From: an uncultured Pelagibacteraceae bacterium | GTDB lineage: Bacteria; Pseudomonadota; Alphaproteobacteria; Pelagibacterales; Pelagibacteraceae | Direction of reading: 5' to 3' | NCBI GenBank assembly: GCA_902599605.1 | Contig: CACKFV010000005.1 | Coordinates: forward strand, 1-52,500 | DNA length: 52,500 nt | Shown: positions 3,625 to 11,748 of the stretch, in pieces | How the letters are laid out: every line of letters starts with the position of its first letter | Position numbering within the stretch: position 1 is the stretch's first letter | The notes under the pieces: model-generated | Told to the model about the DNA's origin: nothing | The model's database searches: none | Seen by the model: the letters and a program-made list of their open reading frames with translations, nothing else | Translations under genes and position numbers: made by a program

Positions 3625-3699
3625 TGGTGCCCTCGATGAGAATCTAACTCATGACTGACCCTTACCAAGGGCCTGTTTTAACACTAAAACTACAAGGGC
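3625..3699 (-). tRNA. tRNA-Thr (GGT anticodon)
   Basis: A full cloverleaf can be drawn: acceptor stem GCCCTTG/CGAGGGC (7 bp), D stem GTTT/AAAC, anticodon stem GGCCC/GGGTC (one G-T pair) with loop TTGGTAA giving anticodon GGT, a 4-nt variable loop, T stem ATGAG/CTCAT, discriminator A and an encoded CCA (75 nt in all). The anticodon arm is the familiar alphaproteobacterial tRNA-Thr form. Two positions are odd: the D loop reads AGTGTTA where AGTGGTA is usual, and the T loop reads TTAGATT where TTCGATT is usual. These would turn the G19-C56 tertiary pair into U19-A56. Confidence 0.9.
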
Positions 3700-3758
3700 A
3701 TACAATTATAAATAGTGTAAAAATAAGGATTATTCAAATTATTGCCTTAATATTCGAT

Positions 3759-3791
3759 ATATTTAATATATAATTAAATTATATTAAATAT
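3759..3791. repeat. 12-bp inverted repeat just before a start codon
   Basis: ATATTTAATATA (3759-3770) and its exact reverse complement TATATTAAATAT (3780-3791) flank a 9-nt spacer. The right arm ends 5 nt before the ATG at 3797, exactly where a ribosome binding site would lie, and no Shine-Dalgarno sequence is visible. It could be an operator for a dimeric regulator or an mRNA hairpin at the start site. The DNA is almost pure A/T, so a chance palindrome is possible. Confidence 0.5.
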
Positions 3792-3796
3792 CTGTC

Positions 3797-4078
3797 ATGA
3801 AAGTTTACAAAAAAATAATATTAGACCAAAACAATAAAATTATTTACGAAGATTCTTTTGAATATAATGGAAAATGGTCTTACGCTGGTATTCACTACGA
3901 TTTCAAATCAACCAGGGGCGCAAAAGCTATGGAGAAGCAAGCCAAAAGAGAAAAAAAACTAGCTGAAAGAAAAGCCAAAAGACAAGCTAAGCAAGGAACA
4001 AATAAATCTGAAGATAAGACAATACCAATTGATCAAGTTGTAACTTTAGAGCATCTCACCAATCCTGAAAAAAAATAA
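3797..4078 (+). CDS. Small conserved-looking protein of unknown function
   Basis: I do not recognise this 93-residue protein. The N-terminal 45 residues look like a small beta-rich domain (MKVYKKIILDQNNKIIYEDSFEYNGKW is alternating hydrophobic/polar; the stretch quoted is split at GKW by a likely turn). Residues 48-70 are a strongly charged Lys/Arg/Glu/Ala helix, and the tail is acidic and polar. There is no signal peptide or membrane segment. Codon usage and composition match neighbouring genes, and the frame is followed after 8 nt by another small basic frame, so it is probably a real gene. A 12-bp inverted repeat covers its start region. Confidence 0.6.
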   Translation: MKVYKKIILDQNNKIIYEDSFEYNGKWSYAGIHYDFKSTRGAKAMEKQAKREKKLAERKAKRQAKQGTNKSEDKTIPIDQVVTLEHLTNPEKK

Positions 4079-4086
4079 TCTTTTTA

Positions 4087-4209
4087 ATGAATTTTAAAAG
4101 AAAGCCTTCTAAGCTTGATCTCGAAAGAGCTCTTAGAAAAAATTTAAGAAAAAGAAAAATTCAAAAACGGAAAAATCAAAACAATGATATTAAACGACAA
4201 ACAAATTAA
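4087..4209 (+). CDS. Very small, strongly basic protein (40 aa), function unknown
   Basis: An ATG-initiated 40-codon frame that begins MNFKRKPSKLDLERALRK and continues with alternating Arg, Lys, Gln and Asn to the stop at 4207-4209. About half of its residues are basic. It begins 8 nt after the preceding small gene and overlaps the dcd start by 26 nt, which fits the tight packing of this genome. Such a protein would be expected to bind nucleic acid or the ribosome, but that is only inferred from charge. In A-rich DNA, Lys-rich frames can arise by chance, so this is a candidate only. Confidence 0.4.
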   Translation: MNFKRKPSKLDLERALRKNLRKRKIQKRKNQNNDIKRQTN

Positions 4210-4735
4210 AGAGCTTGCTCAAAAAGAGGAAATGATAAGCCCATTTGTAAGTGAAAGTGTATCTCAAGGCATTAGTCATGGACTCAACTCATTTGGCTAT
4301 GACTTAAGATGTGGCTCCGAATTTAAAATTTTTACTAATATAAAAGGAGCTACTGCTGACCCCAAGAATTTTAGTGAGGATAATTTTATAACTATTAAAG
4401 GTGAGGACTCAGTTTTAATTCCCCCAAACTCTTTTGCATTAGCAAGTAGTCTTGAATATTTTAAAATGCCTAGAAATGTGACTGGACTAGTGACAGCTAA
4501 GAGCACATACGCTCGTTGTGGACTAGGAACTCCCCCAACAGTTTTAGAAGCAGGTTGGCATGGCAATTTAGTTTTAGAATTTTCAAATCATACAAGCAAC
4601 ACTATAAAGTTATATGCAAATAGTGGAGCAGCTCAAATTTTGTTTTTTAGTGGAGATCAACCTGAGGTATCTTACTCTGACAGAAAAGGAAAATATCAAG
4701 GTCAAGTTGGTATAACTTTAGCAAAATCAAAATAG
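4184..4735 (+). CDS. dcd: dCTP deaminase
   Basis: Deaminates dCTP to dUTP, the main bacterial source of dUMP for thymidylate synthesis. The 183-residue product spans the whole trimeric dUTPase-fold family: SFGYDLRCG near residue 37, TAKSTYARCGL (about 104-114) and the active-site strand LEAGWHGNLVLEFSN (121-135) in which Glu132 corresponds to the catalytic glutamate. The C-terminal segment AAQILFF is also typical. The gene ends 1 nt before murA, so it lies in one transcript with murA, the DUF2948 gene, hisD and infA. Confidence 0.93.
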   Translation: MILNDKQIKELAQKEEMISPFVSESVSQGISHGLNSFGYDLRCGSEFKIFTNIKGATADPKNFSEDNFITIKGEDSVLIPPNSFALASSLEYFKMPRNVTGLVTAKSTYARCGLGTPPTVLEAGWHGNLVLEFSNHTSNTIKLYANSGAAQILFFSGDQPEVSYSDRKGKYQGQVGITLAKSK

Positions 4736-4736
4736 T

Positions 4737-6005
4737 ATGAAAAGTTTAATAATTACTGGCCCAAACAAAGCCGTAAATGGAACAGTAGATATAAGTGGTG
4801 CAAAAAATTCATGTCTCCCACTTATGGCAGCATCTATTCTTTTTAAAAAAGAAGTAATTTTAAGAAACGTTCCTTTGGTTCAAGACGTTCTTACAATGAA
4901 AGATCTTTTAATTTCCTTAGGTTCTAAAGTAAAAATTTTAGAGAAAAAAAAGATTATGATTATTACAAATAAAAAAGATCATAAATTAACCGTTTTTTAC
5001 AACTTGGTATCTACAATGAGAAGTGGTGTTCTTTTAATGGGTTCTTTACTTGGAAGATATCCAAAAAAAAAAATAAGAGTTGCTCAAGGTGGTGGTTGTG
5101 CACTTGGAATTCGTGACACATCATGGCATCTCGAAGGTTTCAAAAGTTTAGGGGCTGAGTACGTTTTAGAAAAGGGATATGTGAAAATATCTTCAAAGAA
5201 TGGTTTGGTAGGTAAGAGTTATAAGTTTCCAAAAATTACAGTTACAGGCACATCAAATTTAATCATGTCTTCAGTTTTTGTAAGAGGTTCCCATGTTTTA
5301 AAAAATATATCCTTAGAACCTGAAGTACTAGATCTTATAAAATTCTTAAACAATTCAGGAGCAAATATAAAGTTTATTGGCAAAAGATCTTTAAGAATTA
5401 AAGGTATTAAAGAGTTATTAAGCGGCAATCATAAAATTATCGGCGATAGAATAGAAGCATTTAGCTATCTATGTGTAGGAGCAATTACAAAGGGTAGTGT
5501 AAAGGTAGTGAATATAAATCCAAAATTTTTACCTTCAGAATTAAAGGTATTAAAAAAAATAGGTTTTAAAATTGGCATAAGTAAAAATTCTATAAAATTA
5601 AACACAATTAAAAAATTAAAACCTATAAACATTAAAACTGGACCATGGCCTGGATTTGCAACAGATTGTTTGCCTATTCTAATACCTGTTTTGACAAAAA
5701 TTTCTGGGCAAAGCAAAATTAAAGAGACGATTTTTACAAATAGATTTATGGCTGTACCTGAACTAAATAGAATGGGTGCAGATATAAAAATTAAAAAAAA
5801 CTTAGCAGTAATTAATGGAGAAAAAAAATTGAACTCTGCTGATTGTATTTCATCTGATCTTAGAACTACTTTCTCAATAATATTGGGGGCAGTTGCAGCA
5901 AAGGGAGCATCAACAATATCAAGAATTTATCATGGATTGAGAGGGTACTCAAATCTTCAATTTAAATTAAGAAAACTTGGTATTAAAGTAAAAATGAAAA
6001 TATAA
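4737..6005 (+). CDS. murA: UDP-N-acetylglucosamine 1-carboxyvinyltransferase
   Basis: Transfers enolpyruvate from PEP to UDP-GlcNAc, the committed step of peptidoglycan precursor synthesis. The 422-residue product has the two-domain EPSP-synthase-like fold. Lys23 in SGAKN, the loop cysteine Cys121 in GGGCALG, Asp in SSDLR (about 374) and Arg in LRGYS are all present. Several near-invariant neighbours differ from the usual family text: GGCAIGxRP is GGCALGIRDT, PYPGFPTDMQ is PWPGFATDCL, and DRGYE is LRGYS. The reactive cysteine is retained, so fosfomycin-type chemistry should still apply. It is followed with a TAATG overlap by the DUF2948 gene, the normal alphaproteobacterial order. Confidence 0.9.
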   Translation: MKSLIITGPNKAVNGTVDISGAKNSCLPLMAASILFKKEVILRNVPLVQDVLTMKDLLISLGSKVKILEKKKIMIITNKKDHKLTVFYNLVSTMRSGVLLMGSLLGRYPKKKIRVAQGGGCALGIRDTSWHLEGFKSLGAEYVLEKGYVKISSKNGLVGKSYKFPKITVTGTSNLIMSSVFVRGSHVLKNISLEPEVLDLIKFLNNSGANIKFIGKRSLRIKGIKELLSGNHKIIGDRIEAFSYLCVGAITKGSVKVVNINPKFLPSELKVLKKIGFKIGISKNSIKLNTIKKLKPINIKTGPWPGFATDCLPILIPVLTKISGQSKIKETIFTNRFMAVPELNRMGADIKIKKNLAVINGEKKLNSADCISSDLRTTFSIILGAVAAKGASTISRIYHGLRGYSNLQFKLRKLGIKVKMKI

Positions 6006-6394
6006 TGGTAAAAAATTTTTTATCTAAAATATTAGCAAGAGATCAGAATGGTTTGAATATAATTTCTACATACTGTGAGGACTCGACCACTAGTGTTTCA
6101 GAGATTAAATATTTAAAAAAAAATCAAATATTTTTACTGTCCCTCATCCGAAAATCTCTGAAAGATAACAAAAAAAGTAACATTATAAGTGTCTGTAAAT
6201 TTGAATTTATACAGAATGTTGTAGCAAAAAATATAGACCAAAAAGATAGTAAACTAAAATTAAATTTGATGGGAATAGATCTTATGAAAATAGGCAAACA
6301 ATATGAAATTAATTTGTTATTTTCAGATAATCGTTTTATAACCCTATATTCTGAAATTATAGAAGTGACATTGGAGGATTTAAAAAAAAAATAA
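6005..6394 (+). CDS. DUF2948 family protein
   Basis: A 129-residue protein of unknown function. Assignment to DUF2948 rests on the pattern LARDQNGLNIISTYCEDS at the start, a central LNLMGIDLMKIG strand, the later FITLYSEIIEVTLEDL segment, and above all on position: DUF2948 genes lie between murA and hisD throughout the alphaproteobacteria. No catalytic motif, membrane segment or metal-binding cluster can be seen. Its start shares a base with the murA stop and hisD begins 1 nt after its stop, so it is co-expressed with both. Confidence 0.75.
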   Translation: MVKNFLSKILARDQNGLNIISTYCEDSTTSVSEIKYLKKNQIFLLSLIRKSLKDNKKSNIISVCKFEFIQNVVAKNIDQKDSKLKLNLMGIDLMKIGKQYEINLLFSDNRFITLYSEIIEVTLEDLKKK

Positions 6395-6395
6395 G

Positions 6396-7682
6396 ATGAA
6401 GGTAATTTCTGCTAAAAATAAGAATTTTGATCAATTGTTGGGTAATCTTTTATCCAAAAGAAAAAATAGGCTTCAATCAGATTACATTTCAGTAAAAAAC
6501 ATAATTAAAGATGTTAAAAAAAATGGAGATAAAGCTCTAGTGAAATATGAGAAAAGATTTAACAAAAATAAAACAATTATTCCGACTTCAAAAAACATTA
6601 AAGATTCCATTAAGTCTCTAGATCAAAAGGTAAAAAAGGCAATAGATGCAGCTTATAATAGAATTTATAAATTTCACTCACTTCAAAAGTTTGGAGATAT
6701 CTCATATGTTGATAAGTATCAAAATAAAGTGAAATATAAATATGTTCCACTCGAGTCAGTTGCCATTTATGTGCCAGGTTCAAAAGTCTCTTATCCATCC
6801 AGCGTTTTAATGGCCGCAATACCTGCAATCGTAGCGCGGGTTAAAAGAATTGTAATGATAAATCCTGGTTATAAAGGAAAGCAAAACGCTGCAGTTTTGT
6901 ATGCTGCAAAAAGATGTGGCATTAAAGAAATTTTTTCCATTGGTGGTCCCTCAGCAATTGCAGCTTTAGCATATGGCACTAAATCAATAAAACCTGTAAA
7001 CAAAATTGTGGGACCAGGAAATTCGTATGTTGCTGCAGCAAAAAAAGAGGTTTTCGGGGATGTAGGCATTGAGTTAATGACAGCTGGACCTTCGGAGATT
7101 TTAGTTGTTTGCGATAATAAATCTAATCCAGAATGGCTAGCAAGTGATTTAATTGCTCAAGCTGAACACGATCCTTTTGCGCAGTGCGTTTTAATTTCAA
7201 AAGATAAAAATATTCTTAAAAAAACCAAGCATGAAATATATAAACAACTAAAAGATATTTCGAGAAGTTCAATTGCAAAAAAAAGTTTAACGACGAATGG
7301 TATACTAATCTACGAAAATTCAGAAAAAAAAATAGTAGAAATAATTAATAAAGTGGGGCCAGAGCACTTAGAGCTGAATATAAAAAATTATAAATCTTTA
7401 ATACCAAAAGTTAAAAATGCAGGCTCTATCTGCTTAGGAAAATATGCTGTGATGGCTATGACAGATTACGGAGTACCGGGCACTAATCATGTTCTTCCAA
7501 CCAATATGACTAGTAAATATTCAAGTGGATTAAGTGTTTCAGAGTTTATAAAAAAAATTTCATATATAAATTTATCAAAAAAGGGTATTGAAACTCTTGG
7601 TCCATCAGTTATAACACTTGCAACAAACGAAGGTTTAGATGGACATGCTAAATCAATTGAAAAAAGATTAGGAGATAAATAA
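6396..7682 (+). CDS. hisD: Histidinol dehydrogenase
   Basis: Catalyses the last two oxidations of histidine synthesis, L-histidinol to histidine, with NAD and a zinc ion. The 428-residue product has the family landmarks in order: YVPGSKVSYPSSVLM, KIVGPGN, AGPSEILV, the zinc/catalytic AQAEHDPFAQ, PEHLEL with the catalytic Glu-His pair, and NHVLPT near the end. The usual GGAQAIAAL appears as GGPSAIAAL. It sits between the DUF2948 gene and infA; the UPF0262 and phosphatase genes often found between them in other alphaproteobacteria are gone. The hisS-hisZ-hisG group lies 1 kb downstream. Confidence 0.95.
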   Translation: MKVISAKNKNFDQLLGNLLSKRKNRLQSDYISVKNIIKDVKKNGDKALVKYEKRFNKNKTIIPTSKNIKDSIKSLDQKVKKAIDAAYNRIYKFHSLQKFGDISYVDKYQNKVKYKYVPLESVAIYVPGSKVSYPSSVLMAAIPAIVARVKRIVMINPGYKGKQNAAVLYAAKRCGIKEIFSIGGPSAIAALAYGTKSIKPVNKIVGPGNSYVAAAKKEVFGDVGIELMTAGPSEILVVCDNKSNPEWLASDLIAQAEHDPFAQCVLISKDKNILKKTKHEIYKQLKDISRSSIAKKSLTTNGILIYENSEKKIVEIINKVGPEHLELNIKNYKSLIPKVKNAGSICLGKYAVMAMTDYGVPGTNHVLPTNMTSKYSSGLSVSEFIKKISYINLSKKGIETLGPSVITLATNEGLDGHAKSIEKRLGDK

Positions 7683-7898
7683 TTGACTAAGGAACAGGTT
7701 TTAGAACTAAAAGGAAAAATTTTAAAAAGTCTCCCGAATGCAACTTTTGCCATAAAGCTCGAGAATGGGCACGAATGTATTGGATACACAAGTGGAAAAT
7801 TAAAGAAAGGAAGAATCCGTGTATTGGAAGGTGATGAGGTGCTTTGTTCTGTTTCAACTTATGACTTGAAGCGTTGCCGTATCACTTGGCGCTTTTAA
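7683..7898 (+). CDS. infA: Translation initiation factor IF-1
   Basis: A 71-residue single OB-fold protein that binds the ribosomal A site during initiation. Family pattern is clear: LPNATFAIKLENGHE, SGKLKKGRIRVLEGDEV and the final YDLKRCRITWRF. The TTG at 7683, directly after the hisD stop, is the only start that gives the normal length. The usual conserved segment GKMRKxRIR is present as GKLKKGRIR. The tRNA-Phe gene begins 2 nt after the stop codon, so the tRNA is probably cut out of the same transcript. Confidence 0.92.
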   Translation: MTKEQVLELKGKILKSLPNATFAIKLENGHECIGYTSGKLKKGRIRVLEGDEVLCSVSTYDLKRCRITWRF

Positions 7899-7900
7899 GA

Positions 7901-7972
7901 GGCCTTGTAGCTCAGTAGTAGAGCAGTACCCTGAAAAGGTATGTGTCGTTTGTGCGATTCAAACCAAGGCCA
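7901..7972 (+). tRNA. tRNA-Phe (GAA anticodon), CCA not encoded
   Basis: The cloverleaf is regular: acceptor GGCCTTG/CAAGGCC, D stem GCTC/GAGC, anticodon stem GTACC/GGTAT with loop CTGAAAA (anticodon GAA), 5-nt variable loop, T stem GTTTG/CAAAC, discriminator A, 72 nt. The bases after the discriminator are CAT, so CCA must be added enzymatically, unlike tRNA-Thr and tRNA-His in this window. The D loop AGTAGTA (usual AGTGGTA) and T loop TGCGATT (usual TTCGATT) suggest A18 and G55 in place of the universal G18-U55 contact. Confidence 0.85.
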
Positions 7973-8127
7973 CATCCCTTAAAATGCATGTGTCGTTATC
8001 ACGAGCAACTAATATAAAGTTAAATACTAAATAAAAGACAATTAAATAACTTGCATCTAATTTAGAAATCTAATAACTAAACACGTTCTTTGTATAAACA
8101 AAGATTAATTAATAAGGAAAGAGTAAA

Positions 8128-8340
8128 ATGAGTACACTAAAGGGTAAAGTCAAGTGGTTTAACGGAAAAAAGGGTTACGGATTCATAGAGCGATCTGACG
8201 GTGAGAAAGATTGTTTTGTTCATGCGAGCCAAGTTCGTGAAGCTGGTCTTCGTTTTTTAAATGAAGGTGATGAACTTGAGTTTGAGATAGAAACTGGAAG
8301 TAAGGGTCCGAGCGCCGTTAAGCTTCGAAAGACATCTTAA
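8128..8340 (+). CDS. Cold-shock domain protein (CspA family)
   Basis: A 70-residue single cold-shock domain. Both RNA-binding motifs are present: KGYGFIE (RNP1, about residues 15-21) and DCFVHAS (RNP2, about 28-34). Such proteins bind single-stranded RNA and DNA and act as RNA chaperones. A purine-rich ribosome binding site, AAGGAAAGAG, lies 5 nt before the ATG, one of the few clear ones in this window, which suggests strong translation. A 155-nt leader between tRNA-Phe and the start is long for this genome and may be a regulatory 5' UTR. A strong hairpin follows the gene. Confidence 0.93.
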
Positions 8341-8361
8341 AAGAAAATCCATCAAACATCG

Positions 8362-8405
8362 TTGTATAGGAATATAAACTGACTAGGTAAATTATTCCTA
8401 TACAA
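8362..8405 (+). terminator. Likely terminator hairpin of the cold-shock gene
   Basis: TTGTATAGGAAT (8362-8373) and its exact reverse complement ATTCCTATACAA (8394-8405) form a 12-bp stem around a 20-nt loop, starting 21 nt after the stop codon. It is followed by a T-rich stretch (TCACTCTTGTATTTTT). Both position and T-rich tail suggest a terminator or a 3'-end stabilising hairpin; the large loop makes it a less than perfect intrinsic terminator. Confidence 0.6.
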
Positions 8406-8494
8406 TTCACTCTTGTATTTTTAAAATTAGATGTTATTTAATCACTATGATTATATTAAATAATAACTTTAATTCTCTTCACAGACATCATTCA

Positions 8495-8516
8495 CATGCT
8501 GGCTGCATGCTAGCTA
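8495..8516. repeat. 11-bp tandem repeat next to the tRNA-His promoter
   Basis: CATGCTGGCTG (8495-8505) is followed directly by CATGCTAGCTA (8506-8516), 9 of 11 bases the same. The block is noticeably more G+C-rich than its surroundings and sits immediately before a perfect TATAAT at 8517. It may be a regulatory protein site or part of the promoter spacer; this is inference from position alone. Confidence 0.35.
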
Positions 8517-8522
8517 TATAAT
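8517..8522 (+). promoter_or_regulatory. Candidate -10 element for tRNA-His/hisS
   Basis: A perfect TATAAT lies 52 nt before the tRNA-His 5' end. The best upstream hexamer, TTCACA at 8491-8496, is 20 nt away, longer than the ideal 17, so the -35 assignment is weak. The 169 bases between the cold-shock hairpin and tRNA-His hold no gene that I can see, so a promoter is expected here. Confidence 0.45.
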
Positions 8523-8574
8523 CATATAAAAATTTAAATTTAATAAAAATTAGTATAAGAATATGAAAGGATAG

Positions 8575-8648
8575 GCGCCCGTCGAATATGGGTAATTCAA
8601 GTGCCTGTGGAGCACTTAAAGGTTGTTCGAGTCAACCCGGGCGTACCA
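8575..8648 (+). tRNA. tRNA-His (GTG anticodon), alphaproteobacterial U72/A73 type
   Basis: Acceptor GCGCCCG/CGGGCGT (with a G1-U72 pair), D stem GAAT/ATTC, anticodon stem AGTGC/GCACT with loop CTGTGGA (anticodon GTG), T stem GGTTG/CAACC with a normal TTCGAGT loop, discriminator A73 and encoded CCA. Ordinary tRNA-His has an extra G-1 paired with C73; here position 73 is A and 72 is U. This matches the divergent tRNA-His of a subset of alphaproteobacteria (studied in Caulobacter), in which the anticodon, A73 and U72 are the identity elements. The 3' end lies 3 nt before the hisS start codon. Confidence 0.88.
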
Positions 8649-8651
8649 AAA

Positions 8652-10034
8652 ATGAAAAAAAATAAAAAAACACCAAGTTTACCAGTTGGATTTCTCGACT
8701 TTAGAGGAAACACGTTAGAGTTAAAAAAAAAAATAATTAAAATTATAGAAGATAATTTTATAAATTTTGGATTTTCAGCTCTAGAGCAATCAACTTTCGA
8801 GATAAGTGAAAATATTGGAAGTTTTCTTGCTGATGACCCTAATAACCCCATGGCAGACGTTTATTCTTTTGAAGACGGCAAAGAACAATTAACTTACAGA
8901 TATGATATGACGGCTGGTTTAGCTAGAATGTATGCAGCCAATTATTTAGAGTTACCACCTATATACAAAAGGTACTGCATAGGTGATGTGGCCCGTCGCG
9001 AAAAACCGCAAAAAAAAATTCGATTAAAATCTTTTACTCAAGCTGATTGTGATATTATAGGTAATGTAAATAAATTTCAGGCTAATGCAGAATTATGTAA
9101 TTTAATTGCGGACTCACTTCTCAAACTTAACTTTAAAAAAGAACAATTTAAAATTTGTATAAGTAATCGAAAGATAATCGAGGGGTTGATTGATGACCTT
9201 AAAATAACGGATGAAAATCAAAAATTGAAAGTTTTTAGAGCTATTGATAAAATAAGCAATCCAAATATTGGTATATCTGGAGTAAAAGATTTACTAGGTA
9301 GCAAACGAGCTGATCAGTCAGGGGCAATTCAAATTGGAGCAAATCTTTCAAAAGATCAAATAGAAACAATAACTAACTGCATTCAATTAAAAGATTTAAA
9401 AGAAATAAGTTCTACTTTAAAGAATCCACTATCAAGAGAAGGTATAAACGAGACAGAAAAATTATTAGAAATAATTAGTTATGGCGATTATTCTAATCAG
9501 ATAAATATATCGATAGAGAAAGTTAGAGGGATAAATTATTATTCAGGGTGGTTAGTAGAAACTGAATTAAATATTCCTAATTTTGGAAGCGGTCTATCTG
9601 TTTGCAGTGGAGGAGAATATCAAGACTTAATTGGTTCATTTAAAGGGCTATCAACACCTGGTGTGGGTATAAGTTTCGGAATATCTAGGTTAACAACAAT
9701 ATTATCAGAAATTAAACAACTTGAAGTTAATGAAAAAAAACCAGCTTTAATTTGTGTAATGGACTCGAAATACTTATCAAAATATTATGAAATTTTAAAT
9801 GAGTTGAGATCAAACGGGATAAATAGTGAAATCTATCTAGATCGTGAAAAAAATCTTGGGAAACAATTAACTTATGCCAATAAAAGAGGATGTCCAGTTG
9901 CGGTAATTTGTGGAGAAAATGAATTTAAAGAAAATAATATCACTCTGAAAAATCTTCTTGGAGTAAAAGGAGAAAATAACCAAGCTACATTTCCAAAAGA
10001 AAACTTAATCAATGAAATCAAAAAACTTATCTGA
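8652..10034 (+). CDS. hisS: Histidyl-tRNA synthetase, divergent alphaproteobacterial type
   Basis: A class II synthetase (460 residues) that charges tRNA-His. Visible landmarks are motif 2 around RYCIGDVARREKP, the histidine-specific KVRGINYYSG (family norm VRGLDYYT) and a GISFGISRL motif 3 near residue 350, followed by an anticodon-binding C-terminal domain. The frame is open upstream to a GTG at 8601, but that codon lies inside the tRNA-His anticodon arm, so I take the ATG at 8652. No ribosome binding site is possible once the tRNA has been cut out: only 3 nt would precede the AUG. It overlaps hisZ by 23 nt. The enzyme and its U72/A73 tRNA appear to be a matched pair. Confidence 0.92.
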   Translation: MKKNKKTPSLPVGFLDFRGNTLELKKKIIKIIEDNFINFGFSALEQSTFEISENIGSFLADDPNNPMADVYSFEDGKEQLTYRYDMTAGLARMYAANYLELPPIYKRYCIGDVARREKPQKKIRLKSFTQADCDIIGNVNKFQANAELCNLIADSLLKLNFKKEQFKICISNRKIIEGLIDDLKITDENQKLKVFRAIDKISNPNIGISGVKDLLGSKRADQSGAIQIGANLSKDQIETITNCIQLKDLKEISSTLKNPLSREGINETEKLLEIISYGDYSNQINISIEKVRGINYYSGWLVETELNIPNFGSGLSVCSGGEYQDLIGSFKGLSTPGVGISFGISRLTTILSEIKQLEVNEKKPALICVMDSKYLSKYYEILNELRSNGINSEIYLDREKNLGKQLTYANKRGCPVAVICGENEFKENNITLKNLLGVKGENNQATFPKENLINEIKKLI

Positions 10035-11061
10035 AAAAATTCTTAAATCTGTAAAATCTAAAGGATTTAAATATATTGAGTTACCATCAGTGATTGAGGC
10101 TAATCATATTTTTCAAAGGTCAGGCGAAAATTTTAGAAAGTTTGTTTTTTCATTTATAGATCAAAATGGAAATGAGTTATGTTTAAGGCCTGATTTAACC
10201 ATAGTTTCCTGCCTTAGATATCTTGAAAACAATCTGAAATCCAAAGAAAAAATATTTTATAGTGGTCAGGCTTATAGAAAATCAAATAATAAAAAAGACT
10301 CAATCATTAGAGACCAAGTTGGATTTGAAATTATCGGTTCAAATGATGAGAAGAAAGATGACAAAGAAATAATTGATACTTCTCTCAAATCACTAAAAAA
10401 CTTAAAATACGCTGCTGGTACGCTAACTGTTGGAAATATACAGATATTCAATCTTTTGATTTCAAAATTGGAGATTCCTAATAGATGGAAATTAAGACTC
10501 GCAAGACATTTTTGGAGAGAAGGCTATTTCAACGACTTACTAAAAAGACTGGAGACTAATTCAGACGTTGATCCGATAACTGTAGAAATTGATAAAAAGC
10601 GTTTTTTAAAAATGACCAAAGAAAATAAATCATCAGTAATTGCAGAAAGATCCATCGATGAAATTTTAAAAAGGTTTGACAAGAAAATAAAAGACCCAAG
10701 ACGTCCAAGCGAAGGTAGAAACATTTCTAAAATTATTAGACAGTTCTTAAAGATAAAATGCCCAATAAGCAAAGCTGCAAACGAATTAAATAAATTTTTC
10801 AAAAAAAATAAAATTAACTTAGCTGTTGATCAAAAATATTTTCCATTTTCAAATAACAAAGTTTCAAAACTTAATGTAATTTTTTCAACCACTTGTGGCA
10901 GGCAGCTTGAATACTATACAGGTATGGTGTTTAAAATAGATATTAAATCAAAAAACAAAATTAAAAATGTCTGTAATGGTGGAAGATATGACAAATTAAT
11001 TTTTGATTTAGGATCAAAAAGAAAAGTACCAGCTGTTGGAGCTGCAGTAAACTTAAGTTAA
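10012..11061 (+). CDS. hisZ: ATP phosphoribosyltransferase regulatory subunit HisZ
   Basis: A 349-residue catalytically inactive paralogue of the HisRS core that activates short-form HisG and carries histidine feedback control. The N-terminal part follows class II synthetase text (FRKFVFSFIDQNGNELCLRPDLT, here broken into its recognisable parts SFIDQNG and LRPDLT), and YYTGMVFKI with NGGRYDKL near the end corresponds to the synthetase histidine-binding region. There is no anticodon-binding domain. The start overlaps hisS by 23 nt and hisG begins 3 nt after its stop, which fits a HisZ4-HisG4 complex made from one mRNA. Confidence 0.9.
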   Translation: MKSKNLSEKILKSVKSKGFKYIELPSVIEANHIFQRSGENFRKFVFSFIDQNGNELCLRPDLTIVSCLRYLENNLKSKEKIFYSGQAYRKSNNKKDSIIRDQVGFEIIGSNDEKKDDKEIIDTSLKSLKNLKYAAGTLTVGNIQIFNLLISKLEIPNRWKLRLARHFWREGYFNDLLKRLETNSDVDPITVEIDKKRFLKMTKENKSSVIAERSIDEILKRFDKKIKDPRRPSEGRNISKIIRQFLKIKCPISKAANELNKFFKKNKINLAVDQKYFPFSNNKVSKLNVIFSTTCGRQLEYYTGMVFKIDIKSKNKIKNVCNGGRYDKLIFDLGSKRKVPAVGAAVNLS

Positions 11062-11064
11062 ATT

Positions 11065-11748
11065 ATGAATAATATAATTAACATCGGTATTCCAAGTAAA
11101 GGTAGATTAAAAAAAGAATTTTTAAAAATTTTTAAAAGTAAAAAATTAAAGCTTACCTCAGAAAGGGGTGAAAGAGATCTTATTGGTTCCATACAGGGAA
11201 AAAAAAATATCAAAATTTTGTATTTACATGCTCGAGAGATAATACAGAGATTAGGAGATGGGTCTTTAGATTTGGGTTTTTCAGGATTTGATCTGTTTAA
11301 AGAAAGTGAATTTAATATTCAAAAAAAAATAAATGTTGTTAAAAAATACGATTTCTCAAAGGCAAATCTTGTCATTGCGATTCCTGATCGTTGGATTGAT
11401 GTTCAAACTGTAGCAGACCTAGAAGAAATAGCATTTGAATTTAAAGATAAAAAAAAGAAAAGAATAAGAGTTGCAACCAAATATCCTAACTTGACCCGAA
11501 ACTTTTTATATTCAAAAGGCGTAACTCAATTTCAATTAGTTGCAAGTTCTGGAGCTATGGAGGTTTACCCTTTCACTGGCTCAGCAAATTTAATATCAGA
11601 TATCAGTTCCTCTGGTGAAACAATTAAAAGTAACAACCTGCGCATACTTAAAGATGGAATAATCCTAAAATCTCAAGCATGTTTTTTCATATCTAAAAAA
11701 AATAAATCAAAAATGGATATAAAAAAAACTATAAGACTATTCACCTAG
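11065..11748 (+). CDS. hisG: ATP phosphoribosyltransferase catalytic subunit, short form
   Basis: Joins ATP and PRPP, the first step of histidine synthesis. At 227 residues this is the short HisG, which lacks the C-terminal ACT-like regulatory domain and needs HisZ, encoded just upstream. Motifs: GIPSKGRLKKE at the start, GSLDLGFSGFDL, RVATKYPNLTRNF and the PRPP loop region SSGAMEVYPFTGSANLI (about 157-173), where the family usually reads GAxExAPxxGLAD. With hisD and the hisS/hisZ pair this gives a scattered histidine pathway. Confidence 0.92.
   Translation: MNNIINIGIPSKGRLKKEFLKIFKSKKLKLTSERGERDLIGSIQGKKNIKILYLHAREIIQRLGDGSLDLGFSGFDLFKESEFNIQKKINVVKKYDFSKANLVIAIPDRWIDVQTVADLEEIAFEFKDKKKKRIRVATKYPNLTRNFLYSKGVTQFQLVASSGAMEVYPFTGSANLISDISSSGETIKSNNLRILKDGIILKSQACFFISKKNKSKMDIKKTIRLFT

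Follow-up and report, generated by a model that had tools for sequence, protein, structure and literature searches.

Transfer RNA genes that directly adjoin protein-coding genes are known from several systems. In animal mitochondria, protein genes are directly preceded or separated by tRNAs, whose excision frees mRNAs with little or no leader. The thrU–tyrU–glyT–thrT–tufB operon of Escherichia coli places tRNAs and a protein gene in one transcript, from which the tRNAs are released by processing. In the E. coli thrS operator, a synthetase recognizes a tRNA-like structure in its own mRNA, and in pylT–pylS, a mobile cassette for a non-standard amino acid, a tRNA gene stands beside the gene for its own synthetase. 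For histidine, one study describes an alphaproteobacterial tRNA-His and histidyl-tRNA synthetase (HisRS) that have codiverged, with a tRNA that lacks G−1 and carries A73, and finds this pair in seven of eight SAR11 strains (PMC3937112); these features of SAR11 tRNA-His are thus known. A report on Caulobacter likewise describes a tRNA-His/HisRS pair without G−1 (PMC3875453).

Here we analyse a locus in which tRNA-His abuts the gene for its own synthetase. The window is a 52,500-nt stretch of a Pelagibacteraceae contig and belongs to a partial SAR11 genome assembly (975 kb, 86% complete).

Organization of the tRNA-His–hisS junction

The tRNA-His(GUG) gene occupies positions 8575–8648 of the forward strand, as identified by ARAGORN (anticodon GTG) and from the sequence, and has a G1–U72 pair, A73 and an encoded CCA. 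The junction with hisS reads CCA-AAA-ATG (8646–8654, forward strand): the CCA at 8646–8648 is followed by a 3-nt AAA spacer (8649–8651) and the hisS start codon (8652–8654), exactly as in an earlier note on this DNA, which had placed the tRNA directly against hisS. Three forward-strand genes follow in the order tRNA-His–hisS–hisZ–hisG. The hisS gene (8652–10034) passes the curated cut-off of TIGR00442 with 290 bits; hisZ, for the regulatory subunit of ATP phosphoribosyltransferase (10012–11061), scores 371 bits against NF008953, just below the cut-off of 384, and hisG, for the short form of ATP phosphoribosyltransferase (11065–11748), is recognized by TIGR00070. The 5′ end of hisZ overlaps the 3′ end of hisS by 23 nt, and 3 nt separate hisZ from hisG.

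Apart from this ATG, hisS has no start codon near its conserved N-terminus. The open frame offers a single alternative, the GTG at 8601 within the tRNA gene, and the HisRS N-termini of relatives all align with the Met encoded at 8652, which rules out a start at another codon. A start deep inside the frame, which the earlier note had set against its own proposal, is made unlikely by the same conserved N-termini.

Upstream, a cold-shock protein gene, csp (8128–8340, forward strand), lies between tRNA-Phe and tRNA-His and is kept across the family. The tRNA-Phe(GAA) gene (7901–7973, forward strand; ARAGORN) starts 2 nt past the infA stop codon. At 7973–7980 it reads ...GGCCACATCC, compared with ...GGCCACCA in relatives; the encoded CCA has apparently been lost, so that a CCA-adding enzyme would be needed. 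The interval between tRNA-Phe and tRNA-His is a flexible insertion spot: at loci L103, L112, L131 and L132 it holds insertions of ~0.8–1.6 kb whose genes, as read by eye, include one for a predicted methyltransferase and one for a short conserved protein.

A single, divergent tRNA-His gene

The window tRNA-His folds into a full cloverleaf but is so divergent that a search with the Rfam tRNA model leaves it out even at E ≤ 1; several SAR11 tRNAs with unusual bodies or elbows are missed by ARAGORN or Rfam. Parsed tRNA-His types from related loci have 6–7 acceptor, 3–4 D-stem, 4–5 anticodon-stem and 5 T-stem pairs, with an intact CCA and anticodon; the exception is L019, which the script parsed out of register. 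Across 134 loci, G1 and U72 are invariant, A73 is present in all but one (133/134) and the GUG anticodon is kept. Conservation of these bases together with the position of the gene argues against a chance match. The base at −1 is G in only 26 of the 134 loci, so there is no conserved encoded G−1; base 8574 of the window happens to be G, and the window alone is uninformative on this point. Judged by its tRNA-His, the window hisS product is of the alphaproteobacterial, G−1-independent type.

The gene also appears to be the sole source of tRNA-His. When all RF00005 hits in the complete genome of a relative, G012, were fetched and typed by anticodon, one of its approximately 32–33 tRNA genes had GTG, and this is the gene before hisS. 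The copy at 8575–8648 is likewise the only tRNA-His gene found in the window genome, and typing of the other tRNAs found in genome G000 revealed no second one, leaving no candidate for a copy elsewhere in either G012 or the G000 set. With a single gene, as in G012, the leader tRNA must be excised if His codons are to be translated.

Distribution of the linkage and genome compaction

Loci containing hisS were gathered by protein-anchored surveys and duplicates were removed; a class-wide DNA pattern combining tRNA-His with a following ATG was dropped as too unspecific. Many of the surveyed genomes were assembled from single cells or metagenomes. The tRNA lies directly 5′ of hisS in all 134 unique Pelagibacteraceae loci, which span six genera, so that the SAR11 synteny survey proposed in the earlier note found the abutment at every examined locus of this family. 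The spacer from CCA to ATG is 4 nt in 97 loci and 3–7 nt in 130; the remaining four (L017, L249, L250 and L251) have spacers of 27–29 nt with a possible small hairpin inside. In the long spacer of L251, an AGGA motif lies at Shine–Dalgarno (SD) distance from hisS. The sister family within Pelagibacterales is different: ~1.4 kb separates hisS from a tRNA-His gene on its 5′ side, with an antisense transporter-like gene in the gap at one such locus (L056), or else no tRNA-His was found in the fetched flank. Outside Pelagibacterales the contrast consists of 22 alphaproteobacterial genomes with short flanks, and in none of these 22 loci was a tRNA found in the fetched hisS flank (~1.5 kb for most). 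The view that this is no standard alphaproteobacterial arrangement thus holds outside the order, but within Pelagibacteraceae the arrangement is standard. In the literature searched, we found no published report of the hisS/tRNA-His linkage in SAR11.

The abutment is shared with other genes. At least seven of the G012 tRNAs run straight into an ATG, namely tRNA-His and at least six others with an in-frame ATG 3–9 nt past the CCA and confirmed long open reading frames. By our reading of the sequences, tRNA-Gln precedes a cca-type CCA/poly(A) nucleotidyltransferase gene by 3 nt, tRNA-Glu a GIY-YIG nuclease gene by 4 nt, tRNA-Pro a respiratory-complex subunit gene by 5 nt, tRNA-Gly-GCC a phhB-like gene (pterin carbinolamine dehydratase) and tRNA-Leu-CAA an AMP-binding enzyme gene by 6 nt each, and tRNA-Leu-UAG the trigger factor gene tig by 9 nt. 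Two further candidates, Leu-UAA and Arg-ACG, were left out because their long open reading frames are unconfirmed. The Gly, Pro, Gln, Leu-UAG and Glu pairs are found again in G000, with gaps of 2–11 nt. The 3-nt pairing of tRNA-Gln with a cca-like gene (L264 in G012, L270 in G000) is, again by reading, a second pair of a tRNA and a tRNA enzyme. In the control G069, a large-genome alphaproteobacterium, none of 40 tRNAs is followed within 15 nt by an ATG-started open reading frame, and three TTG starts look spurious. The median same-strand gap in the window is 2 nt (10 nt or less in 21 of 33), and a median intergenic length of 3 nt has been reported for P. ubique (PMC2704228).

Because unrelated genes adjoin unrelated tRNAs equally closely, the abutment needs no histidine-specific explanation. 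The abutment is mostly a matter of genome compaction, which largely explains the linkage itself. A 3-nt gap is expected from close packing alone; a cognate synthetase as the neighbor is not predicted by it. Cognate linkage is unlikely a priori to arise by chance and, together with the proximity seen in the sister family, hints at selective value beyond compaction.

Transcription and processing

An A/T-rich box resembling TATAAA or GATAAA is found 10–20 nt 5′ of tRNA-His in almost all relatives, and the putative −10 box of the window, TATAAG (8554–8559, forward strand), lies 15 nt from the tRNA. The GC-rich 3′ arm of the tRNA contains no −10-like box. With a box upstream and none in the 3′ arm, the hisS transcript would have to enter through the tRNA, and the conserved box lends support to the earlier suggestion that the two genes share a transcript. 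The accompanying suggestion, that excision would produce a near-leaderless hisS message, agrees with the spacer sequences, from which A(3–7)-AUG would remain.

We propose that a single promoter just 5′ of tRNA-His drives tRNA-His–hisS–hisZ–hisG and that RNase P would cut the 5′ end of the tRNA. RNase E/G is clearly present, but for RNase Z no gene was found (the family model gave only a sub-cut-off match, to a PhnP-like protein). We therefore infer that the 3′ end is produced by cleavage in the A-rich spacer, through RNase E or a nuclease like it, followed by exonuclease trimming. The excised leader would be the cell's only tRNA-His, and the residual hisS mRNA would start 0–7 nt before the AUG and be read as a leaderless or near-leaderless message. 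Transcripts cut within the start region would yield tRNA without HisRS, making the two products coupled and partly exclusive. Several other tRNA–gene pairs in the genome have the same layout, and co-expression would be the most that the cognate pairing of tRNA-His with hisS offers.

Nothing resembling an SD sequence precedes hisS. Among window genes, for which start sites are only estimated, SD-like 4-mers precede 1 of 46, compared with 6 of 46 control positions; this suggests that initiation is mostly SD-independent in these genes, within the uncertainty of their start sites. Since such motifs are rare in the window generally, as far as estimated starts allow, their absence at hisS says little. 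Other leader types were also sought: the T-box covariance model gave no match at E ≤ 1 in 7700–9000, no other Rfam element was detected nearby as a hisS leader, and predicted structure in the hisS 5′ coding region is not beyond chance (fold z-score −0.22).

We favor, with a probability of about 0.6 for the reading as a whole, a tRNA–mRNA operon that arose by genome streamlining, with mitochondria-like punctuation, a near-leaderless hisS message and an abutment fixed in the ancestor of Pelagibacteraceae.

Variation in the tRNA body and elbow

The turnover of tRNA bodies and elbows is more surprising than the hisS linkage. The tRNA-His body is hypervariable, with 34 sequences among the 134 loci. 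When the 23 tRNAs shared by G000 and G012 are compared, identity is lowest for Thr-GGU (57%), His (65%) and Phe (74%) and at least 91% for the other 20. All three of these most divergent tRNAs lie in one 5-kb stretch inside the window (3625–8648), the third being tRNA-Thr(GGU) on the reverse strand (3625–3699; ARAGORN).

Bodies can differ sharply between otherwise similar loci. L101 and L093 are mostly 93–99% identical over 5 kb and encode HisRS proteins that are 98% identical, whereas their tRNA-His genes are 59% identical; the L101 tRNA-His, together with ~35–50 nt of promoter, is instead identical or nearly so to those of another lineage (L094 and L110). The exchanged tract in L101 (~110–130 nt, promoter and tRNA) reaches the tRNA/hisS junction. 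The tRNA-Phe genes of this pair are 38% identical, and the conserved csp gene lies between tRNA-Phe and tRNA-His. L121 and L118 have tRNA-His genes that are 45% identical beside a nearly identical adjoining promoter. A phage source for the bodies was considered, and three sequence patterns gave no match in viral contigs.

The synthetase varies as well. In the window HisRS the motif-2 loop is aberrant, with REKPQKKIRLKSF in place of NEKxGNxRYREF. At the site of this loop examined for Gly in place of Gln, most SAR11 loci read xGN(G/A), and the window and two sisters, L071 and L143, have PQKKI instead. These three share the aberrant loop, and each has a different tRNA-His body.

Positions 18 and 55 are occupied by either G–U or A–G, never by a mixture, in the parsed types of tRNA-His, -Phe, -Thr(GGU) and -Val(GAC). 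Counted as distinct sequences, G18–U55 and A18–G55 number 22 and 13 for His, 7 and 10 for Phe (five Phe types were left unparsed by the script) and 29 and 3 for all G012 tRNAs; L019, out of register in the parse, is G18–U55 by eye. The window tRNA-Phe has the A18–G55 elbow. We noted the covariation at L006, L008, L009, L016, L071, L143 and L147 and in tRNA-Phe, -Thr and -Val genes of relatives. In tRNA-His the switch is seen on several backgrounds, namely the canonical-bodied type of genus g5, L005/L134, L009/L071 and the AGCGTAA type, and from these different sequence backgrounds it probably arose more than once. In tRNA-Thr the 19–56 pair is also replaced, by U19–A56 (including in the window) in place of G19–C56 or, in one relative, by A19–U56. 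Psi55 has been described as universally conserved (PMC4810234), SAR11 and A18 are absent from a review of unusual tRNAs (PMC7609411), and a literature search on A18–G55 found nothing matching. The paired changes from G18–U55 to A18–G55, and in tRNA-Thr from G19–C56 to U19–A56 or A19–U56, are natural compensatory evidence on a tRNA contact. In practical terms, the altered elbow hides the sole tRNA-His of many SAR11 genomes from tRNA finders.

Alternative explanations

An unlikely reading is that the linkage is purely an accident of gene order, with hisS translated from uncut transcripts by SD-independent initiation and no further consequence. The short same-strand gaps, the scarcity of SD-like motifs in the window and the presence of three hypervariable tRNAs flanking the region whatever the function of the genes would all fit, but because the tRNA needs maturation, cleavage at the start codon or beside it has to affect a sizeable fraction of transcripts. 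We consider it distinctly unlikely that the uncut tRNA fold on hisS mRNA acts as an operator. In such a model, HisRS would either occupy the fold during a shortage of free tRNA-His and so repress its own translation, or compete with RNase P or the 3′ nuclease. The fold does sit at the start codon, the bases recognized by HisRS are intact in every leader and there is a precedent in yeast, where HisRS represses translation of its mRNA by binding to an anticodon mimic within it (PMC6542539). However, the leader is the sole tRNA-His gene and must be cut, charging accounts for the conserved bases, unrelated genes are equally close to unrelated tRNAs and the hisS 5′ coding region holds no conserved structure. 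Nothing in the comparisons favors the binding of HisRS to its own message that the earlier note had raised, and near-identical HisRS proteins are found behind bodies only 45–59% identical.

Very doubtful is the proposal that tRNA-His and HisRS form a co-evolving orthogonal pair that must recombine as a unit. Codivergence of the two is known in alphaproteobacteria (PMC3937112), and both the motif-2 loop and the tRNA body are unusually variable; yet in L101 and L093 one HisRS occurs with different tRNA-His bodies and the exchanged tract ends at the junction, so the pair is not an inseparable cassette, and three sister strains combine one motif-2 loop with three different bodies. Least probable of all would be a dual-use leader, in which the ratio at which tRNA-His is cut out or stays on hisS mRNA determines both products and repeated exchange of body and promoter, along with the A18–G55 elbow, tunes this balance in SAR11 populations; the elbow would then change how the tRNA is recognized by RNase P and by other factors that read the elbow.

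Comparison with known systems

If the streamlined tRNA–mRNA operon is correct, it would be a bacterial counterpart of mitochondrial punctuation in which the supply of tRNA-His is coupled to that of HisRS, and, should processing leave leaderless messages, tRNA excision would make the 5′ ends of hisS, tig, cca and other mRNAs in the most abundant marine bacteria. As in mitochondria, the SAR11 tRNA lies immediately 5′ of the start codon and in the same direction; unlike in mitochondria, most genes lack this layout, the bacterium is free-living, there are several promoters, the CCA is encoded and RNase Z is apparently absent. The E. coli tufB operon keeps a spacer with a ribosome-binding site, whereas the SAR11 spacer is 3–7 nt without one and the gene is that of the cognate synthetase. 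With the codiverged alphaproteobacterial pair the locus shares A73, the lack of a conserved encoded G−1 and an unusual position 72, but the SAR11 body and elbow are far more variable, the motif-2 loop of the window lineage is unusual and the linkage goes unmentioned in the accessible part of that study (PMC3937112).

Recognition of a tRNA-like element in the synthetase's own mRNA, as by yeast HisRS and at thrS, is the model put forward in the earlier note; in contrast to those mimics, the SAR11 element, known here from its sequence, is a genuine and sole tRNA gene that needs excision. Finally, whereas pylT–pylS is mobile, the SAR11 pair is an essential housekeeping one whose members abut within 3–7 nt.
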